Assembly (NCBI RefSeq): GCF_963675165.1
Contig: NC_087382.1
Span: forward strand, 5,247,963-5,311,962
Origin: Halichondria panicea
Taxonomy: Eukaryota > Porifera > Demospongiae > Suberitida > Halichondriidae
Reading direction: 5' to 3'
DNA: 64,000 nt
The position numbers and the translations under genes are program-made. Below the pieces are notes generated by a model. It saw only the letters and a program-made list of their open reading frames with translations. It did no database searches and was not told the origin of the DNA. How positions within the stretch are numbered: position 1 is the first letter of the stretch; every line of letters begins with the position of its first letter. Shown piece after piece: positions 6,398 to 61,500 of the stretch.

Positions 6398-9300
6398 CTA
6401 AACAGGCTGTTTTTTAATGAGTCTACAAATGTCCCTGACAACTTCTAAGTCACTGTGAATCTTAATGCACCCTCTCAGCAGGTATCGATAAGTGTCTTTG
6501 CGACTGGGCTCCCCACGGCCACAGTTGATCTCCTGCCATTTCAGTAGCATCTGATATCCTTTTGTGTGAGCGACGGTGAATCGAATGTCGGTCTCAATGT
6601 TATCCAAGTGTACTCTTGTCAGTCCAAGATAGTGGGCATATGTGGACCAGCTGTGCAGGTGCTGGGAGATGGGCAGTAGATGATCGTGGGAGCACGGCCT
6701 GTCCAGTTCTTGAATAGAGATTCCAACTTTTCTTGCTATGTCATCGATTTGGGCATCTGCAGCTGCACAAAAACAAAAAAATTAAAGTGTCACAAAAAGA
6801 ACTGAGTACTATAACATTGCTAATTCCTACATACAGCAATTACGAAACACTAGCTGTTACCAGTAATTTTATTCTGGTAAGGTGATACAAGAAATAATTG
6901 TGCTCACCATCAGCAGTAGAAATTTCTGTAGAGCTGGTTGTACTTAACCAAATAGCATCACTCGGCTTGAGATCCCCACCAAGGTCGATATTTTTGGAGC
7001 AACACCATAGCATGGAGTCAATGTAGACCACAGCATAGTGGCGTTCAGACGCCAGCGTTTCTCCTTCGTGTGGGCAGAAGATGCTAATCACTGGTTTGTC
7101 GTTGTCGTAGTGAAGAGCATTGGAAGCAGCATCGATACCATCGAGTATACTCTGCCTTACTACAGAGCACATCTTTTGACAAACTTTTGGTAAGGCTTTG
7201 ATGTGGGCCTCAACATATGAGAAAGAATCGATCAGTGTAACGCTACCAGGAGAATTGGGTAACCCAAACTTGACACAGTTCCTAGCAAGAAAAATCGGCT
7301 CTCCAGAAGGAAGACACACTTTCCACCCACACTTCTTCATTAGGAACACCACCAAACAACAGAAGACCCCACATCGAATACAGCCACTGACAAATCGGAT
7401 GAGAAGAGGATCAGCTGAGGAAGTGAATACACGATGGTGCTCTAACTCTGAAGGTGGAACAGATCTGAGGAGACTGGGCATGAGAAACTCCACTTGAGAG
7501 AAGGAGCAATCAATTTGACCAAGTAGTGGAATGGTGATAGGGGCTATTATCAGAAGCTCCATCATGATTGCTATCATATCAGCAGGTGTGAAGAGGCCGT
7601 CTTCGTAATGCTTCTGGAACTCTTTCGATTTGAGCATATCAATAGTGACAATGCCTTGATCTCTGAACTTGAGCCATTTCGCAGCCTTGGCAGAAGCAGA
7701 ATGAGGACGTTTCCTTTGATGTAAAACATCCCTCAGGGAGACAGCATGTTGTGTTAACTCACTAACCTTGTCTAGTGGGACTTGAGGATCCACAAACACA
7801 GTGTCGGGCAGGATGTGTGGGTAGTAGTGGACAATGCACATGCCATTGAAGTAGTCGAGAGCAGCATCCAATGCAGATGGATCGAATCCAAGCTGTTGAG
7901 CCAAAGCGATGCACTCGCTCTTACTAAGTATACCTCTTTTCATGATATTGCAGAGCTTTTGTAGAGCTAATTCCAAGATAAACCACCACAGGGGAACTTT
8001 GAGGTCGAAAGTAGGTGAGTTTTCCACAGCTTTTCGAATTTCTTTGGCAACCTCTTGTGTATTTTTATCACGACTGCAAGCATTGACGGTGAATATCACA
8101 TGTTTCAATGGCAGATTGCTGTAGATGACTTCTTGTTTCAGTTCAGGAGGCAAAGCATCAAGCAAAACTTGGTTTTTCTCGTCAATAACCTTCTGATCTT
8201 TGATTTCATCCAAGAAAGTGCCCACAAAGATTGGGCGTGGTGTGTACCCATCCCTCTTGCAGGAGAGAAAGGATCGCAGTAAACTCATATCGGTTTCCAG
8301 ATACGAGAGGTGAGATTGAGATGAGGGACCGACTGACTTTCCATCTTTGTACAAGTCGTCGTGGGGATAATCTGCAAAATTATCAGTGAGCCTGGAAACA
8401 AACAGCCCTGCTGAAGCATGTCGAATGAAGAGAGGGGCCACATCGTGAAACTGAGGCTGTCCACCATTGTCGGTCACACGCATCGTTTTTGTACCAAACA
8501 GTTCTTTGCTTTCAGTTGAGGAGATTGAGACTTCTTGTTGTGAAGGTGTTGACACCACAGCTTCAACGACTAAAGTGACGACATCTTTGATTGCTTGCTG
8601 CACAGGAGATACACTCTCTTGAGAAAGTGGGGTTGAATTAGCTGCACTGGTACTGGTCAATTCCTTGAGCCTGGTCTGAAGGTCAATAGGCAACTTGTCA
8701 CGAGAGCTCTGGGGTAGATGCTGAATGGCCTTAGCCAGCATTTTGATCAAATAATTTTCGCTCACTTCCTCCCATTTGCTTTCGGAACTCTTGAAATGGA
8801 GATTGGTGACTGGTCGAACGTGGGCTATTCTATCTCGACAAGGAGTACTGTTCCGTACTTTTGAGGGTGGATTGCCAAGCAAGAGATCTTTTGTCGCTGA
8901 TTTACCGCTACCAGCTGCACCCATGAGTAGGAGATTGATGTTGCGAAGAATAACGTGTCCATCCTTCATGGCCTCATCAAAGAGCTGCTGTGATTCTATG
9001 AGAGAAATGATTAAATATTGCACAACTATATAATTATTATAGCATGATAATTAGGCCAGACAAAATTTGATCATGGGTATATATCAATCTAGCAATGACA
9101 ATGAGTTTAATTATAAGAAACAATTGCTCAAAATAGCTATTCATGCAGTTTCATTAATGAGTTGAGGGTCTGTAGCAGCATACCGGGTAGGTGTAGAGAA
9201 TGCAAACGTGCTGCTATAATTTCAATTGTATGTGTGACGTCATAACATTATTTTAGAAGCTATAGTTGTGCTTGTTGAGCTTGGATTACAGTGCTGGAAA

Positions 9301-49500: not shown

Positions 49501-52500
49501 GTATTAGCAAGTCACCTAGTATTTATTACAGCCATTGTTAAATAGCCCTAGGGTTATCGCTAGAGCAGGGGTTTTTACATGTATGTGTATAGCAATCAAG
49601 ATACCAATCAAAATCATTTATACTTTAATTTGCCTCTTCTACCTGCAGACGAGAGAAGAGCTCAGGGAGGCACTCGAGAATGAGATACGATCTTTCACCG
49701 TTGATAAGGTTAGTTATATGTGACTCATATGTGATCGTTCAATGGTAATCACATGACTCAAACTGCAGGACCTGAGTGGGAAGTTAGAGATCTCCTGGAA
49801 TCACACCGAGTTCGAGGTCCGCTATGAGTGCCTCTCGGAGGAGATCAAAATAGGTACAGCTCACGTACACTTTGAATACCATAGTGCTAAAAAAGCACTG
49901 TCATGCATATGACTCGCCGAAGAATTAAACCTGCACCTGCTTGTGAAAACTGAGAGCAGTCCCATAATCTATGTGACCATCTGTTTTAGAGATTATAATT
50001 TTTTTGCATTATTTGCCCCCTCACACCTGATACACTAATTGGTTCTGACATGCATAAGCTGCCAATATGTCTATTGCAGGTAACTACTACCTCCGACTGC
50101 TACTGGACGAGGGAGGGGACACCAAGTTTGTGGACCCTCACGTGTTCTTTAATGACCTCTACCATCGGTTCCTCCTCTCACCCAAGCCAGCAATGAAGGC
50201 CATGTGTCTGCAGGCCATGGCCATTGTCTACGGACAATGCTACGAAGAGATTGGGCCATTCAACGACACTGAGTTTGTAGCGCGGAAACTGGAACAGGTG
50301 AGTGGGTGTGTATAATTGATGAAATAAGAGGTTAAACTGTATAATATAATATGACAATGAATCACATTTTGGGAGTGAATGTAGGTTTTACTATACTGGC
50401 CTTAACTCTTTAAAAACTTGGCGGATAGCTGCTCCTTATATTGCATGCAATACTTTCCTTTGGCGCCAGCTTTCGATTTTTGTCGATCGCTCATTAATTT
50501 AGCTAAAAGTTAAGTAAAATTGTGTGTGTTATATTAACATGCACGTGACTCAAATCACTTTCTCTAAACAAATGTTTGGGTAAGATTGTTAACATTCCCT
50601 GTGTGTATAGTCAGTCAGTTCATCTGAATGTAATCATACTGTTGGCTTTCAGTTACTTCCATCCCTTCATTCTCAACCTGGCTAGTCTGTTCATCATTGA
50701 ATACTTCGTACACCACATCGGACTGTACCTGTGTAGCATCATCACTCTGTGTAGTAGTAGCATAAACCGGGTTCTGCTTCATTTTAATAAGTGTCTCCAC
50801 TATCTCATAACCAGGAGTGGTACGCACACCATACAGTGGGTTAGGCTGTAGTGGTATTGCTTCATTTTCAAGGGTAGAGGCTTGTGATCTCACTTCCGAT
50901 ATTCTGGTATCTATAAGAGCGTTGTATATTCATTATGAGCCAATTTTTCATGAGTGTAGTTACATGGTACTAATTTTGGGCCAATATGCTTCATTGCAAT
51001 GATACAATGTTCACTTCATATACCTTATACCGGGTTTTGAATGCGAGAATCTGTCGATTACAAACGAAAGACTCACAAAAAAACAGTGTACGTTAGTTGA
51101 TTGGTTTACCTATAACGACGTTGTTGTCCTTGTTACCTCTTCTTTTGGTACGAACAGTGAGTGCAATGACCACAATAGTAACCAAGACGACAATCAACAA
51201 AGCTCCAACCACTCCCCCAACAATGCCACGGACTAGATCCGAGCTTACATCAAAGTCAGTATCTATGCATGGGACACAAATTGACACAAATTAAATTTCA
51301 AATTTGGTTATATACATGTATCACTCACCAGGCTCACAATTGGTGCCTGAGAATCCTGACAGACATGTAGTGCACCTGGTTGATATTTTTCGGCCCAGGA
51401 GACACACTGTACACCCACTGAGTCTATCGTAACCAGGGAGACAAGATGAGCATGTGGTGTTTAGATCGTAGTTAGCCACACACTCAGTGCAATTTGGATT
51501 AAAATTATCCAAGCAAGTTTGACAGAGTCTGGTTGGGTCCCCTCCTGGTAGAGCACACACACTGCAGTCTGTGTCAGTGAACCTGTCTGGTTGTAGGCAG
51601 ATGGAGCAGTTGGTGACTGGGTCTCTGTTGGGTAGGCAACTAGTACAGTCTGAGGTGATGTCCCAGCCTGGTAGACACTGGGTGCAGTCAGTAGAGGGAT
51701 CTCTGTTGGGTAGACACTGGGTGCAGTTGGTAGAGGGATCTCTGTTGGGTAGGCACTGGGTGCAGTTGGTAGAGGGATCTCTGTTGGGTAGACACTGGGT
51801 GCAGTTGGTAGAGGGATCTCTGTTGGGTAGGCACTGGGTGCAGTCGGTAGAGGGATCTCTGTTGGGTAGACACTGGGTGCAGTCGGTAGAGGGATCTCTG
51901 TTGGGTAGACACTGGGTGCAGTTGGTAGAGGGATCTCTGTTGGGTAGGCAACTAGTACAGTCCGAGATGATGTCCCAGCCTGGTAGACACTGGGTGCAGT
52001 CGGTAGAGGGATCTCTGTTGGGTAGACACTGGGTGCAGTTGGTAGAGGGATCTCTGTTGAGTAGGCAACTAGTACAGTCCGAGATGATGTCCCAGCCTGG
52101 TAGACACTGGGTGCAGTCGGTAGAGGGATCTCTGTTGGGTAGACACTGAATGCAGTCAGTAGAGGGATCTCTGTTGGGTAGACACTGGGTGCAGTTGGTA
52201 GAGGGATCTCTGTTGGGTAGGCAACTAGTACAGTCCGAGATGATGTCCCAGCCTGGTAGACACTGGGTGCAGTCGGTAGAGGGATCTCTGTTGGGTAGAC
52301 ACTGGGTGCAGTTGGTAGAGGGATCTCTGTTGAGTAGGCAACTAGTACAGTCCGAGATGATGTCCCAGCCTGGTAGACACTGGGTGCAGTCGGTAGAGGG
52401 ATCTCTGTTGGGTAGACACTGGGTGCAGTTGGTAGAAGGATCTCTGTTGGGTAGGCACTGGGTGCAGTTGGTAGAGGGATCTCTGTTGGGTAGGCACTGG

Positions 52501-55500
52501 GTGCAGTCGGTAGAGGGATCTCTGTTGGGTAGGCACTGGGTGCAGTCGGTAGAGGGGTCTCTGTTGGGTAGGCACTGGGTGCAGTTGGTAGAGGGATCTC
52601 TGTTGGGTAGGCACTGGATGCAGTCGGTAGAGGGATCTCTGTTGGGTAGGCACTGGGTGCAGTCGGTAGAGGGGTCTCTGTTGGGTAGACACTGAATGCA
52701 GTCAGTAGAGGGATCTCTGTTGGGTAGACACTGAGTGCAGTCGGTAGAGGGATCTCTGTTGGGTAGACACTGAGTGCAGGCGGTAGAGGGATCTCTGTTG
52801 GGTAGGCACTGTGTGCAGTCGGTAGAGGGATCTCTGTTGGGTAGGCACTGTGTGCAGTTGGTAGAGGGATCTCTGTTGGGTAGGCACTGGTTGCAGTCGG
52901 TAGAGGGATCTCTGTTGGGTAGGCATTGGGTGCAGTCGGTAGAGGGATCTCTGTTGGGTAAACACTGAGTGCAGTCGGTAGAGGGATCTCTGTTGGGTAG
53001 ACACTGAGTGCAGTTTGTTTGTGAGTCATAGAATTCCAACAAACATGATGTGCAGCCATCGAGAGGACTGAATGTAGAGTCCACGCATGATTCACAGTTA
53101 TCGGTTGTGTCATATTTGGTGTTAGTACAGGATGTACAGTTGGTGTTTGGGTCAAATGCATCTAATAAGCATGTAGAACATCCTGTAGCAATATTCAGGT
53201 TGTAGAGGCAGTCGTTACAGGCTACAAGAGATGAAGGGTCAAGCCGGTTGTCAATACACGTTATAGTACCATCAGCTTGACATATCGCCACTCGTGGATT
53301 GTTATAAAGTGTGGTCGAACAGCCATGCCCACAGAAACCAGGAGAGCACTCTACTCTGAAACTCATGGTCATGTGAGATATGTTGTGGAATCCAGTGAAC
53401 GTCATCTCCTCTGTGAAGTCTGCTCCAAGTTGGAGGTTATCCAGGTTAATCAACATACTGTCTATTATGTTCGGGAGTCCACTGTCCACGGCTTCTATGA
53501 AGAACTGTATTCTTCCCTACAATAATGTACAGTGCATCCAGCTTAGAGAGTAGATTACCACAAATTTGTGAGTAGCTGTACTTAAATGTAAATATCTTTC
53601 GATTGGAATATTTCTAAGAAATGATGTTAATACCAATGTGTAGGTGAATGACCAAACTACAACATACTCAAAAATGTTTCCATGGAAACATAAGATGGTG
53701 GGTTTGTGGTGATTAATAGAACAACAGCAAATTGTTATAGTGAGTACCCCCCTAGCTTGCATGTGGACTTACTGGCACAAACTCTAATCGGTTAGAGTAA
53801 TAAAACAGTAACCTTGTACAGCTAAGGTCCTAGACTTCATCACATAGTTGTTCAATGGTTTAGGTATCCTGACCATCTCTTTATGGGTCTTACATATGTT
53901 CACAGTGTCTATAATTCATGATTTACTGGTTTTCAGGTACACTTTTGGTTAGAGTAATAACTTTTAAAAAATTAATAGTTTAGCTTTCAAATTTCTGTAG
54001 TAAGTTTACAGATAAATGGGCTACATTTTGATACCAAGAATATCCTATATGCTTATTCCATTGCTGAGATAACACTGAAAAGCTACATAATTTACTATTT
54101 TCTACTGTTTTGATGACATCAAAACCACAAAAACCAATGACACTTTAAGGTTACGATGCAGTGTTCGCCCATGCAGTAATTATCAATAGTAAATCAAGCT
54201 TGTCTTGACTGTATACACTAGTCGTCATTTTATATGCTATATATTGCATGCTCTCTGCCAGTAAGGCAATTATCTATTTAAAGGAGGAAAGGGGCAGGGC
54301 GGCTCGAAACAATTTCTTCGAAACAATGAACAGTCATCGAGTTAGCTCGTATAGAAGTAGAAAAATATGGAAAAATAGCTGACTAGCTAGTAAACTATGG
54401 CATTTTTCTTCAGTTTGTAGATAGATAGGAGCAAGAACTCTTCGAGCCACCCTCAGGAATATCATAAACTGCTAGTAGGTCACTGTTTAGTTCTTGTTAG
54501 AGTCTTTCTTTGTCTAATATTTGACGACTAAAATCGGCAGTGACCACACGATCTTTGTGGTAAATTTTTGCCTTCTAGTTAGCGTACTGATAGCTAGCAA
54601 GCGCTGTAATAGTTACTTATGAGTAGTGCAACAGTATAGACACATAAAATAATAGAAACAATATCTTCCTTTCTCACAAAAACAAAAAATAAAAACTCAT
54701 GAATAATTCATGAGCAAACACGTCATCAAAAAGGTAGAATATGTAGGTTTTCAGTGTTATCTCAACAATGGAATAAGAGTAGAGGATGTTCTTGGTATCA
54801 AAATTTAGCCCATTTATTTGTAAACTTACCAGAGAAGTTTTAAAGCTAAGCTATAAAATTTTCAGAAGATATTACTCTAACCAAAAGTGTACCTAAAAAC
54901 CAGTAAATCATGAATTATAAACACTCTGAACATAATTATGCAAGACCCATAAAGGGATGGTCAGGATACTTAAACCATTGAACAATTATTTGATGAAGTC
55001 TAGGACCTTAGCTGTACAAGATTACTGTTTTATTATATATATATACTCTAACCGATTACCTACTATAACAATTTGTTGTTGTTCTATTAATCACCACAAA
55101 CTCACCATCTTATGTTTCCATGGAAACTTTTTGAGTATGATGTAGCTTATTCATTCACCTACACATTGGTATTAACACCATTTCTTAGAAATGTTTCAAT
55201 CGAAAGATATTTACATTTAAGTACAGCTACTCACAAATTTGTGGTAATCTACTCTCTAAGCTGGATGCACTGTACATGCGTGGATAGTGGGTAAGCAGTA
55301 CCATTTTAAAAACTTACGGTCCATATGGATATACCCCTTGTAACTGTTAGAGGATTAGCATATACCCCGAGGAGACCCATTGGACCTTGACCAAATGTTG
55401 TACTAATTTCACTGAGTGGGCAAGTATTGGGGGACACTTGACAATCAGTGAAGTCGTAATTTGAGTTAGGTCTAGTATTCAATGATGCACCGAATGGTCT

Positions 55501-58500
55501 GATAGTCCAACGGAACCTGGTGTCACATCTCTCCTCTCCTGTGTTGTTACAGTTGCTAGATTTGTAAGGAAGGTCATCACAGCACACTGGTACAGTTCCT
55601 TCAGGGTTACTTGTATTGAGTGGTCTATCACATTCTGCACACAGTCCAGTTGGGTTGGTATAGTTGACTAGGTTTACACTCAGCATGTACTCACATCTTA
55701 TCTGTATCTGTACACATTTTAATTTTAATGGCTTTCATTCTTTCACATTGGAAAACTCACTGTGAGGATGCTTGCACAAATTAAGACTGCCAGACTTTTC
55801 TGTTTGTTCTCCATTCTGAATTTCTTGTTTAAAATCTGCGTGCTAGTTTAGTTTACATGACATGTATGTGTGTGTTCTCTCTATAGCTGTGATTTCAGTA
55901 TCCCACTTAGCAGTGTGTTTATTCTATAAGTGAGGGTGTGTTAATTGGTTGTGTAAATTTTCATTGTGGGATATTTACTCTATACGTTCACAATGGTGGC
56001 TACAAAATAAGATTACAAAGACCTGCGTATGCTAGTATTTATATGACATCATGATCATTGCCAGATTGCAAAAGTTACATGTAGATATACAATATAGCAA
56101 CAGTTAAATTTTCTGCTCATTTAGCTCATTCGCATGCAAATATACCTTAAGGTTACTATGTAGTAATTTTAGCATTTTCAGGTTTTCTCTGTGTTTATAG
56201 GGTTCCTAATTTTGGCCGATTTGCAGTAAATTCAATATTTGTATGTAGTTCTTGCTAAAAATTTACGATCTTTCATAATAATTATAGCTAAATCTAAGCT
56301 TGCGATCAGCATCTCCATGTCCTATAGAAAATCCAAAACATATGCGTTGGCTGCAAAAACCCTTAAACATGGATATAACTCAAATCATTGCTGTACAAAC
56401 GTTTGGTAACATTGTTAACATTCCCTATGTGTAGTCAGCAGTTCATATCTGAATGTAATCATACTGTTGACTCTCAGTTACTTCCATCCCTTCATTCTCA
56501 ACCTGGCTAGTCTGTTCATCATTGAATACTTCGTACACCACATCGGACTGTGTAGCATCACTCTGTGTAGTAGCATCATCACTCTGTGTAGTAGCATCAC
56601 TCTGTATAGTAGCATCATAAACCGGGTTCTGTTTCATTTTAATAGGTTTCTCCACTATCTCATATTCAGCAGTGTTGTCAACATTAGTACTGACACAATG
56701 CAGTGGGTTGGGCTGTAGTGGTATAGCTTCACTTTCAAGGGTTGGGGCTTGTGATCTCTCTCCTAGTGCCAATGTGACAGATTCTGTAATTGTGTATATA
56801 GTTGTTATTGTGGTAGTAAAAACTGCTTATCTAGAATTATGTGTGTTCACCTTCCTTACTGATGCATGGCATGTGTGAATTTGAAACTCAATTTTAGATA
56901 CGCGTGTATATATTGATGAGCCATGCACAAGTTAAAATGAACTTTACCTGAGACTTTACTATCGTTGTTGCCTCTTCTCCGGAGTAGAATCACCACAATC
57001 GTTGCCAGGACAACAGTAAACACAGCTCCGACCACTCCGCCAATGATACCAGGCAGACACGATGAGCATGTAGTGCTTAGATCATAGTTAGCCACACACT
57101 CAGTGGCATTAGGGTTAAAACTATCCATGCAAGTTTGACAGAGTCTTGCTGTGTCCCCTCCAGGTAGACAACTAGTGCAGTCAGAGGTGATGTCCCAGCC
57201 TGGTAGACAATGGGTGCAGTTGGTTGCTGGGTCGTAGAATTTCAATAAGCATGTCGAACAGCTTTTTGTTGTGTCCACGTTGTAGAGGCAGTCGTTAGAG
57301 GCTACTAGAGGTGAAGGGTTAAATCGTTTATCGTTACACGTTATAGTGCCATCAGCTTGGCATGTCGCCACTAGGGGATTGTTCTGAAGTGTAGTCGAAC
57401 AGCCATGCCCACAGAAACCAGGAGAGCACTCGACTCTGAAACTCATGGTCATGTGAGATATGTTGTGGAATCCAGTGAACGTCATCTCCTCTGTGAAGTT
57501 TGCTCCAAGTTGGAGGTTGTCCAGGTTAATCAACAGACTGTCTATTATGTTCGGGAGTCCACTGTCCACAGCTTCTATGAAGAACTGTATTCGGCCCTAT
57601 TCAAAGCATTTATAAATGTTAGGTGCTGTATAACAAAAACGAACTTACTACCCAAAAAAATTGTTGGTTTGAGACAAGTAGAGGATTGGGTGTTACCCCG
57701 AGGATTGCTGCTGGACCTTGACTGAAGGTTGTACTAATTTCACTGAGTGGGCAAGTGCTGGGGGACAGGGCACAATCAGTGAAGTAGTAATTTGAGTTAG
57801 GTCTAGTCTCCAATGATGTACCGAATGGTCTGATGGTCCAACGGAACCTGGTGTCACATCTCTCCTCTCCTGTGTTGTCACAGTTTCCAGATTTGTAAGG
57901 AAATTCATCACAACACACTGGTACAGTTTCTTCAGGGTTACTTGTATTGAGTGATCTATCACATTCTGCACACAGTCCAGTTGGGTTGGTATAGTCGACT
58001 AGGTTTACACTCAGCATGTATTCACATCTTATCTGCACACGTGCATATAATTTTTGTAAAGGTAGTCTACATATGCTTTGAATCTCACTGAAATGACACT
58101 TGTGCAGATGAAGACCACTAAACTTTGCAGTGTATATCTCATTTTTCTCTGTGTAGAAAGTGTCACACTCTAACTCTAGTTTTATATGCTAAAGTCTATT
58201 TGTGTTGAGTTCGACCCAGGAAGTTATGTGGTCAATTATGGCTTCATTTATGCTTTATTTGGTGGACATGTATGCCTGGGACTTCTACATGTAAATGCTA
58301 ACTTTTAGCTGGTTGGAGCTTACCAGCTCTACAGCATATAGATAGAAGCGCTTTTTAACAAGGAATCCAATGGTATATGAAACTTTGAATAATTTCAGTA
58401 AAGTATGACAAAGTTATGACAACTTTATGAAGGTCAAACTCAACACAATAGACTTTAGTCTATGCATGTGCTTGTGACTTTAGTCTATGCATGTGCTTGT

Positions 58501-61500
58501 GACTTCAGCATTGGCTTTTCTATGGTACTCAATATCCATAATTGCATTAGCAGGCCTTTCATTTAAGAGCATGAGGAGGGTCTGTGACATCATAATTAGG
58601 CTTTTAATTCTATGGTACTCTATAAGTTATATTTGTTGTTACAGCTTTCAATTATGTATACATTGTGAATCTCACATGACACTCACATGACAGTGTGTGG
58701 ACAAGACGGAGAGGGACCGCCTCCTGATGTTCATTGACAAGCTCCTCCATCACAAGACCAACGTCAAGTTGTTCCTGGATGCCAACGGTATCCGAGTGTT
58801 GGTGGACCTGGTCACTCTGGCTCACCTGCACACCTCACGGGCACACGTACCATTACAGAGTCTGGCCATAGAAGCATCACCTGATCTGGACAGGTAGGCG
58901 TGCCATTGGTTTTGAACTATACAGTGCACATGCATGTATACGGTGTATACATGTATGCAGTGTGTATATGTCTGTGTACATGTCTATATACATTTATTTG
59001 GAGTCCTTAAAATAAGAGTGCTTTAGAGTGTATTTTAGCATTGCTTGAGGCAATGTGTGTGACCTTTCAATCACATCCCTTCGTCTAGGCATGCATACAT
59101 GTAGCCTCGATCCCAGGCCGATCCGTCTCCAATTGAACGCTAGGTCGCCTACTAGGCCTGGTATTGATTGTATTTGGGCGTGATCTGGGCGTGGTTTTTT
59201 AATAATTGACTCTGTGGTACAACAAAAAATGAATCCTCCAACAGTGGTCTTCAACAACAGCCTCTGGGGCAGTATACAGCAGGAAATACTTCCCAGAAGA
59301 CACTTCTTTGGCAGTGGCAACCAAATCTTTGTCGATTCCTTTATTGCTACTGAGGATGGCAGCAGAAACACCTCTATTGTTTAGACTCCTGCCTGGTCAA
59401 TCATGAGTCTCATGATGAGAGATACAAGGGGAGAGACAATTAACAAGAACAATACTTTTGTCAACAGGAGGAGCCTTGGTCCTACCTAGCTTGTAGTCCA
59501 TTAAAAAGGGTAGCAACTGATATAGCAGAGAGACTTGCCATATCCCGTTGGGAACCAGATAAACACGTCCCTTCCCTCAAACAGGAGCTTGAGAGCCTGG
59601 GCCTGTTCTGCCATGAGAGTGAGGCCATCTTGCTTCAAACAAGACAACGCGTTGCATGCCATAGCTAGCTAGCTATAAATTGAGAACATGACACGGAGCT
59701 ACATTACTGTAAGTTTTACGGGAGTAAAATGCCTCTACGTACACCTTTAGTATTACAGAAAAAAAGCAGGAAACAAAATGTGAAGAATCTCTGCTTTAGT
59801 TTCCGGTTCCTGCCACGCCCAGATACAATCAATACCAGGCCGTATTTTTCAACTTCGTTCTATTAAAAAAAAATCGGCCTGGGACCGAGGCTAGCATACA
59901 TGCAGAATTCCCTGAACTAGTTTTGGCACTACCGTATAGAGGGAAATTTTTGCGGACCACGACCCTGTACAAATGTTCGCTATTGCTTCAGAGCCCTCAG
60001 CAGAAATGTTTGTGGGTTCTAATACTCGCGTTTCATTTCTAGGAAACCACACCCACCAATAGTTTTGCATGTGAAATACCAGTGTGTGGGAGTTTATCAT
60101 TTTCGCATCTTCTGTCTGCCCTCGAAAAACACCCAATTTTGCACCTCACGAAAATGTCCCGCTGTACGGTATTCCAAACTGAAAATCCATTCATTGTGTA
60201 TTCGTTTGTTTATGAAAGTAGTACTCAATGAGTGGGTTTGAACATACTTGTATATGATTAGCGAGGATAACCGATCTGTGTCCATTTTTAAGTTGCTTTT
60301 CTCCGCGTTCCCCTTGTGCAGGGACTCAGAGAAGGAGTGGTACTACACTGGCAAGGACAAGGAGAGACAAGGGCCCTACTCATTCAAGGAGATGAGGGAC
60401 CTCTGGACTGAGCAAGAGATACACCAACGATCCAGGTATGTACATGTAGGAGGATATTTTTACACACAGGCATCACTATTTCTACCAATTGTTCTAGCAT
60501 GTACCACAAAAATTTATACCCACGAATTTAATATCGCATGCATGCATGCCTGCTGCAGAAAGGCTGCTACTCCGCAAAAACCTTTCTAACGGTCCATCCG
60601 CGAAAGTTTATACCCTCGAAATATACCCGCTATACGGTACATGTACATATAGGAGGGCATTCAACAATTTTTACACACAGGCAGAGTTTAATTTGTAACT
60701 ATTCTACTAATTGTTATCCTTATAACCTCTCCTGGGTGGGTGGCTTTATTACATGTAGTAAATTTCAGTCAAGTACAGTACCGTATAGTGGGTATGTTTT
60801 GACAGCTAAAATTTTCACGGTTTTCACCAAGCATGCTCAAAATAATTATTATACACAAAAATTAATGGCCAATCTGCAAAAAAATTAGACCCTCGAAAAG
60901 TACCTGCTATACTGACAATGTGTGTACATGTATGGATGTTAGTGCAGTGTTTCCTTCCCTGGGTGCACCCTGTTTGATTAGCTAATTGAATTTGGGAATC
61001 TGTACAAGTCTTTCATGTTGTGTATACAGTGATAAAAGGGGCTGTGCAGATTCTCTATATAAAGATAATTAGTGGTCATGTATTAACCTGTTCCCAGCTG
61101 GCCATATCCTGTATGGTCTATATAGCTGTAGCTATCGTGTAGCGGGTAATTTTTGTTGGTACAAATTTTGTACGAACTACCCAAATATTCGTACAGCTCA
61201 GGATAAGGACGTTGAACCTATTGTGCCAGAAAATGTAATTTCTTACTGATACGAAAAATACAAAAATTTCCACCATACAAAAATAACCCACTATCTCTAT
61301 AGAAGGCAGCAAAAACGAAAAGATGATGTGAGGCAATATAGTAAAAAAAGAAATGGTCGTATAGTTAAGAAAAAGAAAGGCCTGGTTGGGAGAGTCACCT
61401 GATCCACATAATATAAACATGTGCGATATGTACATGTACATGTAGCTCACAATCGTGACGTAGAATATTCTCCCACGCATTAAGACACTGCCAAGAGTCC

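Follow-up and report, generated by a model that had tools for sequence, protein, structure and literature searches.

A multigene family of putative Delta-derived membrane proteins in the sponge Halichondria panicea, with two members inside a DNAJC13 intron

The window analysed here, a stretch of 64,000 nucleotides on contig C6 of Halichondria panicea, contains two minus-strand genes, designated A and B, within a single intron of the host gene DNAJC13/RME-8. Both belong to a family with an N-terminal part (the head) that shares ancestry with the MNNL(C2)-DSL region of Notch ligands, judging from a clear hhalign match and a matching exon 2/3 split. At the sequence level, A, B and their relatives are nevertheless not ordinary DSL ligands, since the DSL contact motif is absent, the cysteine (Cys) spacing altered and EGF repeats missing. 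We favour, with about even confidence, the reading that the 43 loci found in H. panicea form a Delta-derived family of inward-signalling recognition receptors.

Relationship to Notch ligands

The N-terminal kinship with Notch ligands put forward in the original prediction was borne out by hhalign. The family profile matched that of six canonical H. panicea Deltas at 98.7% (E 4.5e-16), colinearly over 185 columns, with a score of 105.6 against a maximum of 22.3 in 100 column shuffles. The signal came mainly from the exon-3 half (81.1), the exon-2 half alone being marginal (19.6 versus a shuffle maximum of 18.7). The family set consisted of 12 of 27 sequences (25 found plus A and B) cut out by pattern, of which 11 were split by exon; the canonical Deltas (six here, eight DSL regions elsewhere) were read from their loci out of 26 DSL matches. 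The exon 2/3 boundary likewise agreed in place and phase between family and canonical Deltas.

The Pfam MNNL and DSL models, proposed as a profile check, were not reached: A, the pieces of B (first 344 residues, exon-2 frame and exon-3 frame) and 25 relatives gave no match to either at E<=1, and, one PAS_4 match apart (see below), the other Pfam matches of A and the B pieces were below cut-off. The whole genome displayed 26 DSL and 29 MNNL matches, none of them in the window. A PDB sequence search with the A ectodomain returned nothing up to E 10. Structure prediction, a weak test, gave a divided answer on the predicted C2/DSL fold: paralogue P0013, folded from family sequences only, had a predicted local distance difference test (pLDDT) value of 40 and no Foldseek match, while another fold model did find DSL ligands, though its alignment included bilaterian Deltas. 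The unreached Pfam models and the RefSeq names of the relatives (psiR-, VSP-, scavenger-receptor- and MEGF10-like) could suggest a Cys-rich family that arose by convergence, with no kinship to DSL ligands and a likeness due to its cysteines. This is hardly credible, being strongly opposed by the colinear hhalign match far above its shuffles, by the shared intron place and phase, and by the location of family arrays near canonical Deltas.

The DSL region itself was modified in the 27 exon-3 copies taken from the 43 loci. The G[HY][YF] motif, which lies in the loop of DSL that makes contact, was found in none of them, versus all eight canonical DSL regions. Spacing from Cys1 to Cys5 was 4-3-12-7 in 24 of the 27 copies, as opposed to 8-3-11-7 or 8-3-11-8 in seven of the eight canonical regions; all 27 copies had a cysteine at C1-x8. 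Two readings fit this pattern: either a new cysteine appeared and Cys3 was lost (as in the hhalign and MAFFT alignments), or all six cysteines were kept with a shorter first gap. The term 'Notch ligand' used in the original prediction thus stands for ancestry, while its working sense is unproven, Pfam not being reached and the contact motif being absent.

Family organization, stalks and tails

The searched genome comprised 131 Mb in 39 contigs. Searches with the exon-3 frame of A and with exon 2 of B gave 43 strong matches each, two on C6 and 41 on contig C15, with an exon-2 match beside every exon-3 match (loci were counted by hand from the match listings, two further weak exon-2 matches being excluded). 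With 43 paralogous loci, the observation goes beyond chance. Initially presented as a pair, both genes are real, but that picture was incomplete, as they make up two of 43 copies and the main family resides on C15. There, copies occurred at about 37 kb, 1.07-1.13, 1.26-1.32, 1.92-1.96 and 2.19-2.305 Mb. An internal stop interrupted three strong exon-3 matches, of which the one at 1.316 Mb extended well beyond the head into the following part. Pfam DSL matches were recorded near the C15 arrays at 1.341, 2.178 and 2.185 Mb, the last two together with MNNL.

Several other loci were observed in the same searches. Pfam MNNL matches formed clusters without any listed DSL match at C12:1815625-1869449, C14:5642411-5701888 and C6:3987182-4032421; these are perhaps further Delta-like expansions. 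Eight DSL matches were found within 40 kb at C2:2043085-2083484, where loci L004 and L006 displayed a membrane helix after DSL within one open frame that held no EGF repeats. Three adjacent DSL matches inside a 275-aa open frame occurred twice on C4 (5457205-5457588 and 5594023-5594406). A distant exon-2 relative at C7:3784908-3785099 (42% over 71 residues) is possibly an intermediate.

Between head and membrane helix, the family carries a stalk of Cys units. The proposal that a 13-residue Cys repeat stands in for EGF units was upheld: gene B contains 34.5 copies of the underlying 39-nt repeat, C-x9-C-x2-C units number 40 in B and four in A, and EGF matches after DSL were sub-threshold only (best E 0.23 in A, the B pieces and the 25 relatives). 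A PAS_4 match, above cut-off on the whole exon-3 frame of B, was set aside since it exceeded the cut-off in no single stretch, its best stretch lying within the repeat. Three canonical Deltas of H. panicea displayed C-x10-C-x2-C segments after Cys5. On a matrix of 82 distinct family stalk units (one left-out residue being allowed at a cost that we set ourselves), these segments scored 17.6, 24.3 and 21.2, the lowest family unit scoring 15.3. As controls, 500 Cys-rich windows of EGF and DSL proteins reached at most 13.4 (99th percentile 0.7) and eight bilaterian DSL regions at most 3.0; the ends of other canonical Deltas gave 8.9, 6.4 and three negative scores. Most simply, iteration of the DSL Cys5-Cys6-linker segment would have produced the stalk, which would have replaced the EGF repeats.

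Two tail classes, both rich in tyrosine (Tyr), occur on one ectodomain type and are split by array. A long tail followed all 14 genes at 2.19-2.305 Mb (the first gene, 37% identical to the probe, being divergent). At 1.284-1.322 Mb the tail was short in all six genes and had NPVY and YDYIQV-like ends; one more such tail had its head exons outside the stretch. Neither tail probe matched in the other array (counts were made by hand from the listing, on a stitched C15 stretch lacking 2252001-2252500). The tail of A matched the short class weakly (30%, E 2e-7); that of B matched A at 75%. Tyr accounted for 4-6% of the tails of A and B, for 6-8% of seven short tails from C15 and for about 6% of four long ones; in three full-length proteins, long tails had 362-368 residues and 22-24 Tyr. 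Comparing C6 with C15, Tyr positions were not significantly better kept than others (p 0.13). The genome displayed 71 SH2 matches, which indicate domain presence only. The original prediction treated a signalling-type tail as not known from described Deltas, which was overstated: the canonical Delta at 2.185 Mb on C15 probably ends in one, judging by strand order, namely a frame of 238 residues that includes 12 Tyr. Tails of Amphimedon Deltas also contain predicted SH2/PTB sites (PMC3482393, seen in part). Tails of this kind may therefore be older than the family.

Long Cys stalks, N-glycosylation motifs (five in A, 20 in B) and NPVY motifs, which could act as endocytic signals, are also what might be expected from adhesion or matrix proteins, i.e. 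stalked, Cys-rich glycoproteins that mediate contact between cells or with symbionts, the tail serving only for trafficking or anchoring. We regard this as unlikely, the size and Tyr number of the long tails exceeding the needs of an anchor.

Selection and proposed function

Ratios of nonsynonymous to synonymous differences (pN/pS) were obtained for 23 genes (exon 2 was cut automatically for 22 and gene B added by hand, four of the 27 copies being excluded). They were 0.31 for the first 92 exon-3 codons and 0.37 for exon 2 minus three loops, which suggests mostly purifying selection outside the loop discussed here. Loops 2, 3 and 1 had ratios of 0.49, 1.20 and 1.25, respectively. Loop 1, the 16 columns between AEC and VCCD, was the most variable part: it was overlapped by the top six of all 16-column windows, and its ratio exceeded 1 in 99 of 100 half-samples. 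It occurred as a few cassettes found in more than one array, so that the alignment of unrelated cassettes may have inflated its ratio. From its place after the first strand, loop 1 is probably the C2 beta1-2 loop, which in Notch ligands is variable and binds phospholipid, according to the part of the source consulted (PMC5538765).

In a tree of these 23 genes and 10 further or partial proteins, heads were not sorted by array: the 2.2-Mb group required eight changes versus a shuffled mean of 9.5, and 102 of 500 shuffles were as low. One starred pair joined genes from 1.07 Mb and 2.30 Mb (96/81), just five of 30 inner branches being starred. Genes A and B clustered together (91/63), beside four further proteins (96/86).

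Under the favoured reading, family members would no longer be mainly Notch agonists. The C2-like head with its variable apical loop would engage a partner exposed on another surface, with Notch, a further family member, a lipid and a microbe as candidates, and the disulphide-rich stalk would set the reach through its variable length. Tail tyrosines would be phosphorylated and bound by SH2/PTB proteins, sending a signal inward, so that similar inputs could lead to different outputs, depending on which of the two tail classes is joined to the one head type. Genes A and B would be a separate branch, now sitting in the DNAJC13 intron.

As a rival reading, the family could still consist of Notch-pathway proteins, which would bind Notch (for instance via the C2 platform, site 1) as agonists, cis-inhibitors or decoys and would tune canonical Deltas. 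This possibility, doubtful but serious, is consistent with the MNNL/C2-DSL ancestry and, as far as the sources were seen, with the location of Notch site 1 on C2 (PMC5538765) and with known cis-inhibition and dominant-negative ligands (PMC3482393). Lost contact residues are no proof of lost Notch binding, because essential DSL sites are reported in the latter, partly covered source as not conserved in Amphimedon queenslandica Deltas either. Three matches to LNR, a domain of Notch, were found in the genome, two adjacent ones at C17:277797-278177, which also favour this possibility, and one on C10; a NOD profile had no match anywhere in the genome, a result uninformative on Notch. Against a Notch-pathway role stand the contact motif, absent from every family copy compared and present in every canonical region, and the 43 copies, together with their variable loop and two classes of tail, which exceed what decoys would need.

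More speculatively, the arrays might share and swap cassettes for the C2-DSL head, in which the beta1-2 loop varies, each array adding its own signalling tail, and so form a sponge recognition repertoire made from Notch ligands. This layout would be one of paired receptors and could serve self/non-self or symbiont recognition. If family members do act as receptors, a sponge has converted a core developmental ligand of animals into a multigene family of surface receptors, along a path that can be followed: the DSL end was iterated to form a stalk, the EGF repeats were lost, and different tails were joined to one head type. The 43 loci would then be concrete candidates for sponge cell recognition. 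They are also a warning that domain searches miss such relatives, whose RefSeq names, as seen here, point elsewhere.

Genes A and B, their host intron and known systems

The rebuilt models (Table 1) comprise four exons and 475 aa for A and five exons and 1024 aa for B, all with GT-AG splice sites, which agrees with the prediction of two complete antisense genes in one DNAJC13 intron. The host was identified by Pfam RME-8_N on the window exons left of the intron and GYF_2 on those to the right; neither exon bordering the intron had a Pfam match above cut-off, and both are presumably DNAJC13 by frame and by their likeness to it. The predicted signal-like N-terminus, membrane helix and tyrosine-motif tail were all present: each protein starts with a hydrophobic stretch and has a single strong membrane helix (Kyte-Doolittle 2.8 and 3.2 over 19 residues), as in a type I membrane protein with a Tyr-rich tail. 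Gene A and gene B are paralogues, judging from identities of 79% in exon 2, 91% at the start of exon 3 and 76% in the tail (pN/pS 0.73, 0.21 and 0.56, respectively). Their antisense nesting may be merely a landing place.

Table 1. Features of genes A and B and of their host intron in the window
Feature	Coordinates	Strand	Basis or remark
Host intron of DNAJC13/RME-8 holding genes A and B	50298..58693	+	GT-AG, phase 0, 8.4 kb
Gene A exon 1, start codon and hydrophobic signal-like segment	58089..58142	-	gene model
Gene A exon 2, first part of MNNL/C2-like domain, variable loop between AEC and VCCD	57649..58032	-	gene model, profile comparison, loop analysis
Gene A exon 3, end of C2-like domain, DSL-like region, 4 Cys units and membrane helix	56948..57596	-	
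Gene A DSL-like core (FRVEC to TITC)	57336..57440	-	Cys spacing 4-3-12-7, no G[HY][YF]
Gene A membrane helix	56982..57044	-	
Gene A exon 4, short tyrosine-motif tail	56443..56783	-	YEIV, NPVY, YEVF, YDYIQI
Gene B exon 1, start codon and hydrophobic signal-like segment	55761..55814	-	
Gene B exon 2, MNNL/C2-like	55318..55701	-	
Fold-back (inverted-repeat) element filling gene B intron 2	53525..55277	.	arms 76-207 nt, 88-95% complementary
Gene B exon 3, end of C2-like domain, DSL-like region and long Cys repeat	51329..53516	-	
Gene B DSL-like core	53256..53360	-	
39-nt tandem repeat, 13-residue Cys unit, gene B exon 3	51670..53014	-	34.5 copies
Gene B exon 4	51110..51262	-	membrane helix at about 51153-51221
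Gene B exon 5, short tyrosine-motif tail	50615..50910	-	ends YDYIQMN

Intron 2 measures 1.8 kb in B versus 52 bases in A, the extra DNA being the fold-back element. One half of this element had at least 44 genome matches (itself and short pieces counted, 40 of 670 candidates scored) and is thus dispersed. Together with protein searches that returned none identical to A or B (lengths seen being 0.55-1.75 times the query), this insertion could mean that the C6 pair alone is a dead, unexpressed transposed duplicate, the living family being on C15. Such a fate is quite improbable given the open frames, the intact splice sites and the A-B pN/pS, lowest at the start of exon 3. Elsewhere in the window, a 736-codon open frame on the minus strand (6840-9050) had no Pfam match at E<=0.01; it contains a GAAGSGKS stretch that resembles a P-loop.

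Compared with Delta/Jagged proteins (MNNL PF07657, DSL PF01414), the family shares a signal-like N-terminus, a C2/MNNL-like head, a DSL-like region, one membrane helix and the exon 2/3 boundary with its phase. It differs by lacking Pfam matches, the contact-loop motif and EGF repeats, by its Cys spacing and by the 13-residue Cys array. The absence of EGF repeats is not decisive against DSL-ligand status, since AmqDelta4 of A. queenslandica also has none. In the text covered of that study (PMC3482393), software detected MNNL in AmqDelta4 only, essential bilaterian DSL sites were not conserved and tails carried SH2/PTB predictions, as in the family; unlike it, all five AmqDeltas have a DSL domain, and no 13-residue repeat or paralogue arrays are mentioned there.

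Judged by titles and the start of abstracts, no prior description of such a family was found, most subscription journals being beyond the search. Expanded sponge families of the SRCR type (PMC10855680, seen in part) are also large multigene sets of surface proteins, but are built on another domain, whereas the present head is derived from DSL ligands. In vertebrate paired receptors such as CD300A/C (PMC12447643, likewise in part), kindred receptors have ligands in common but produce different outputs; they belong to the immunoglobulin superfamily, unlike the sponge proteins, for which different outputs are just a possibility.

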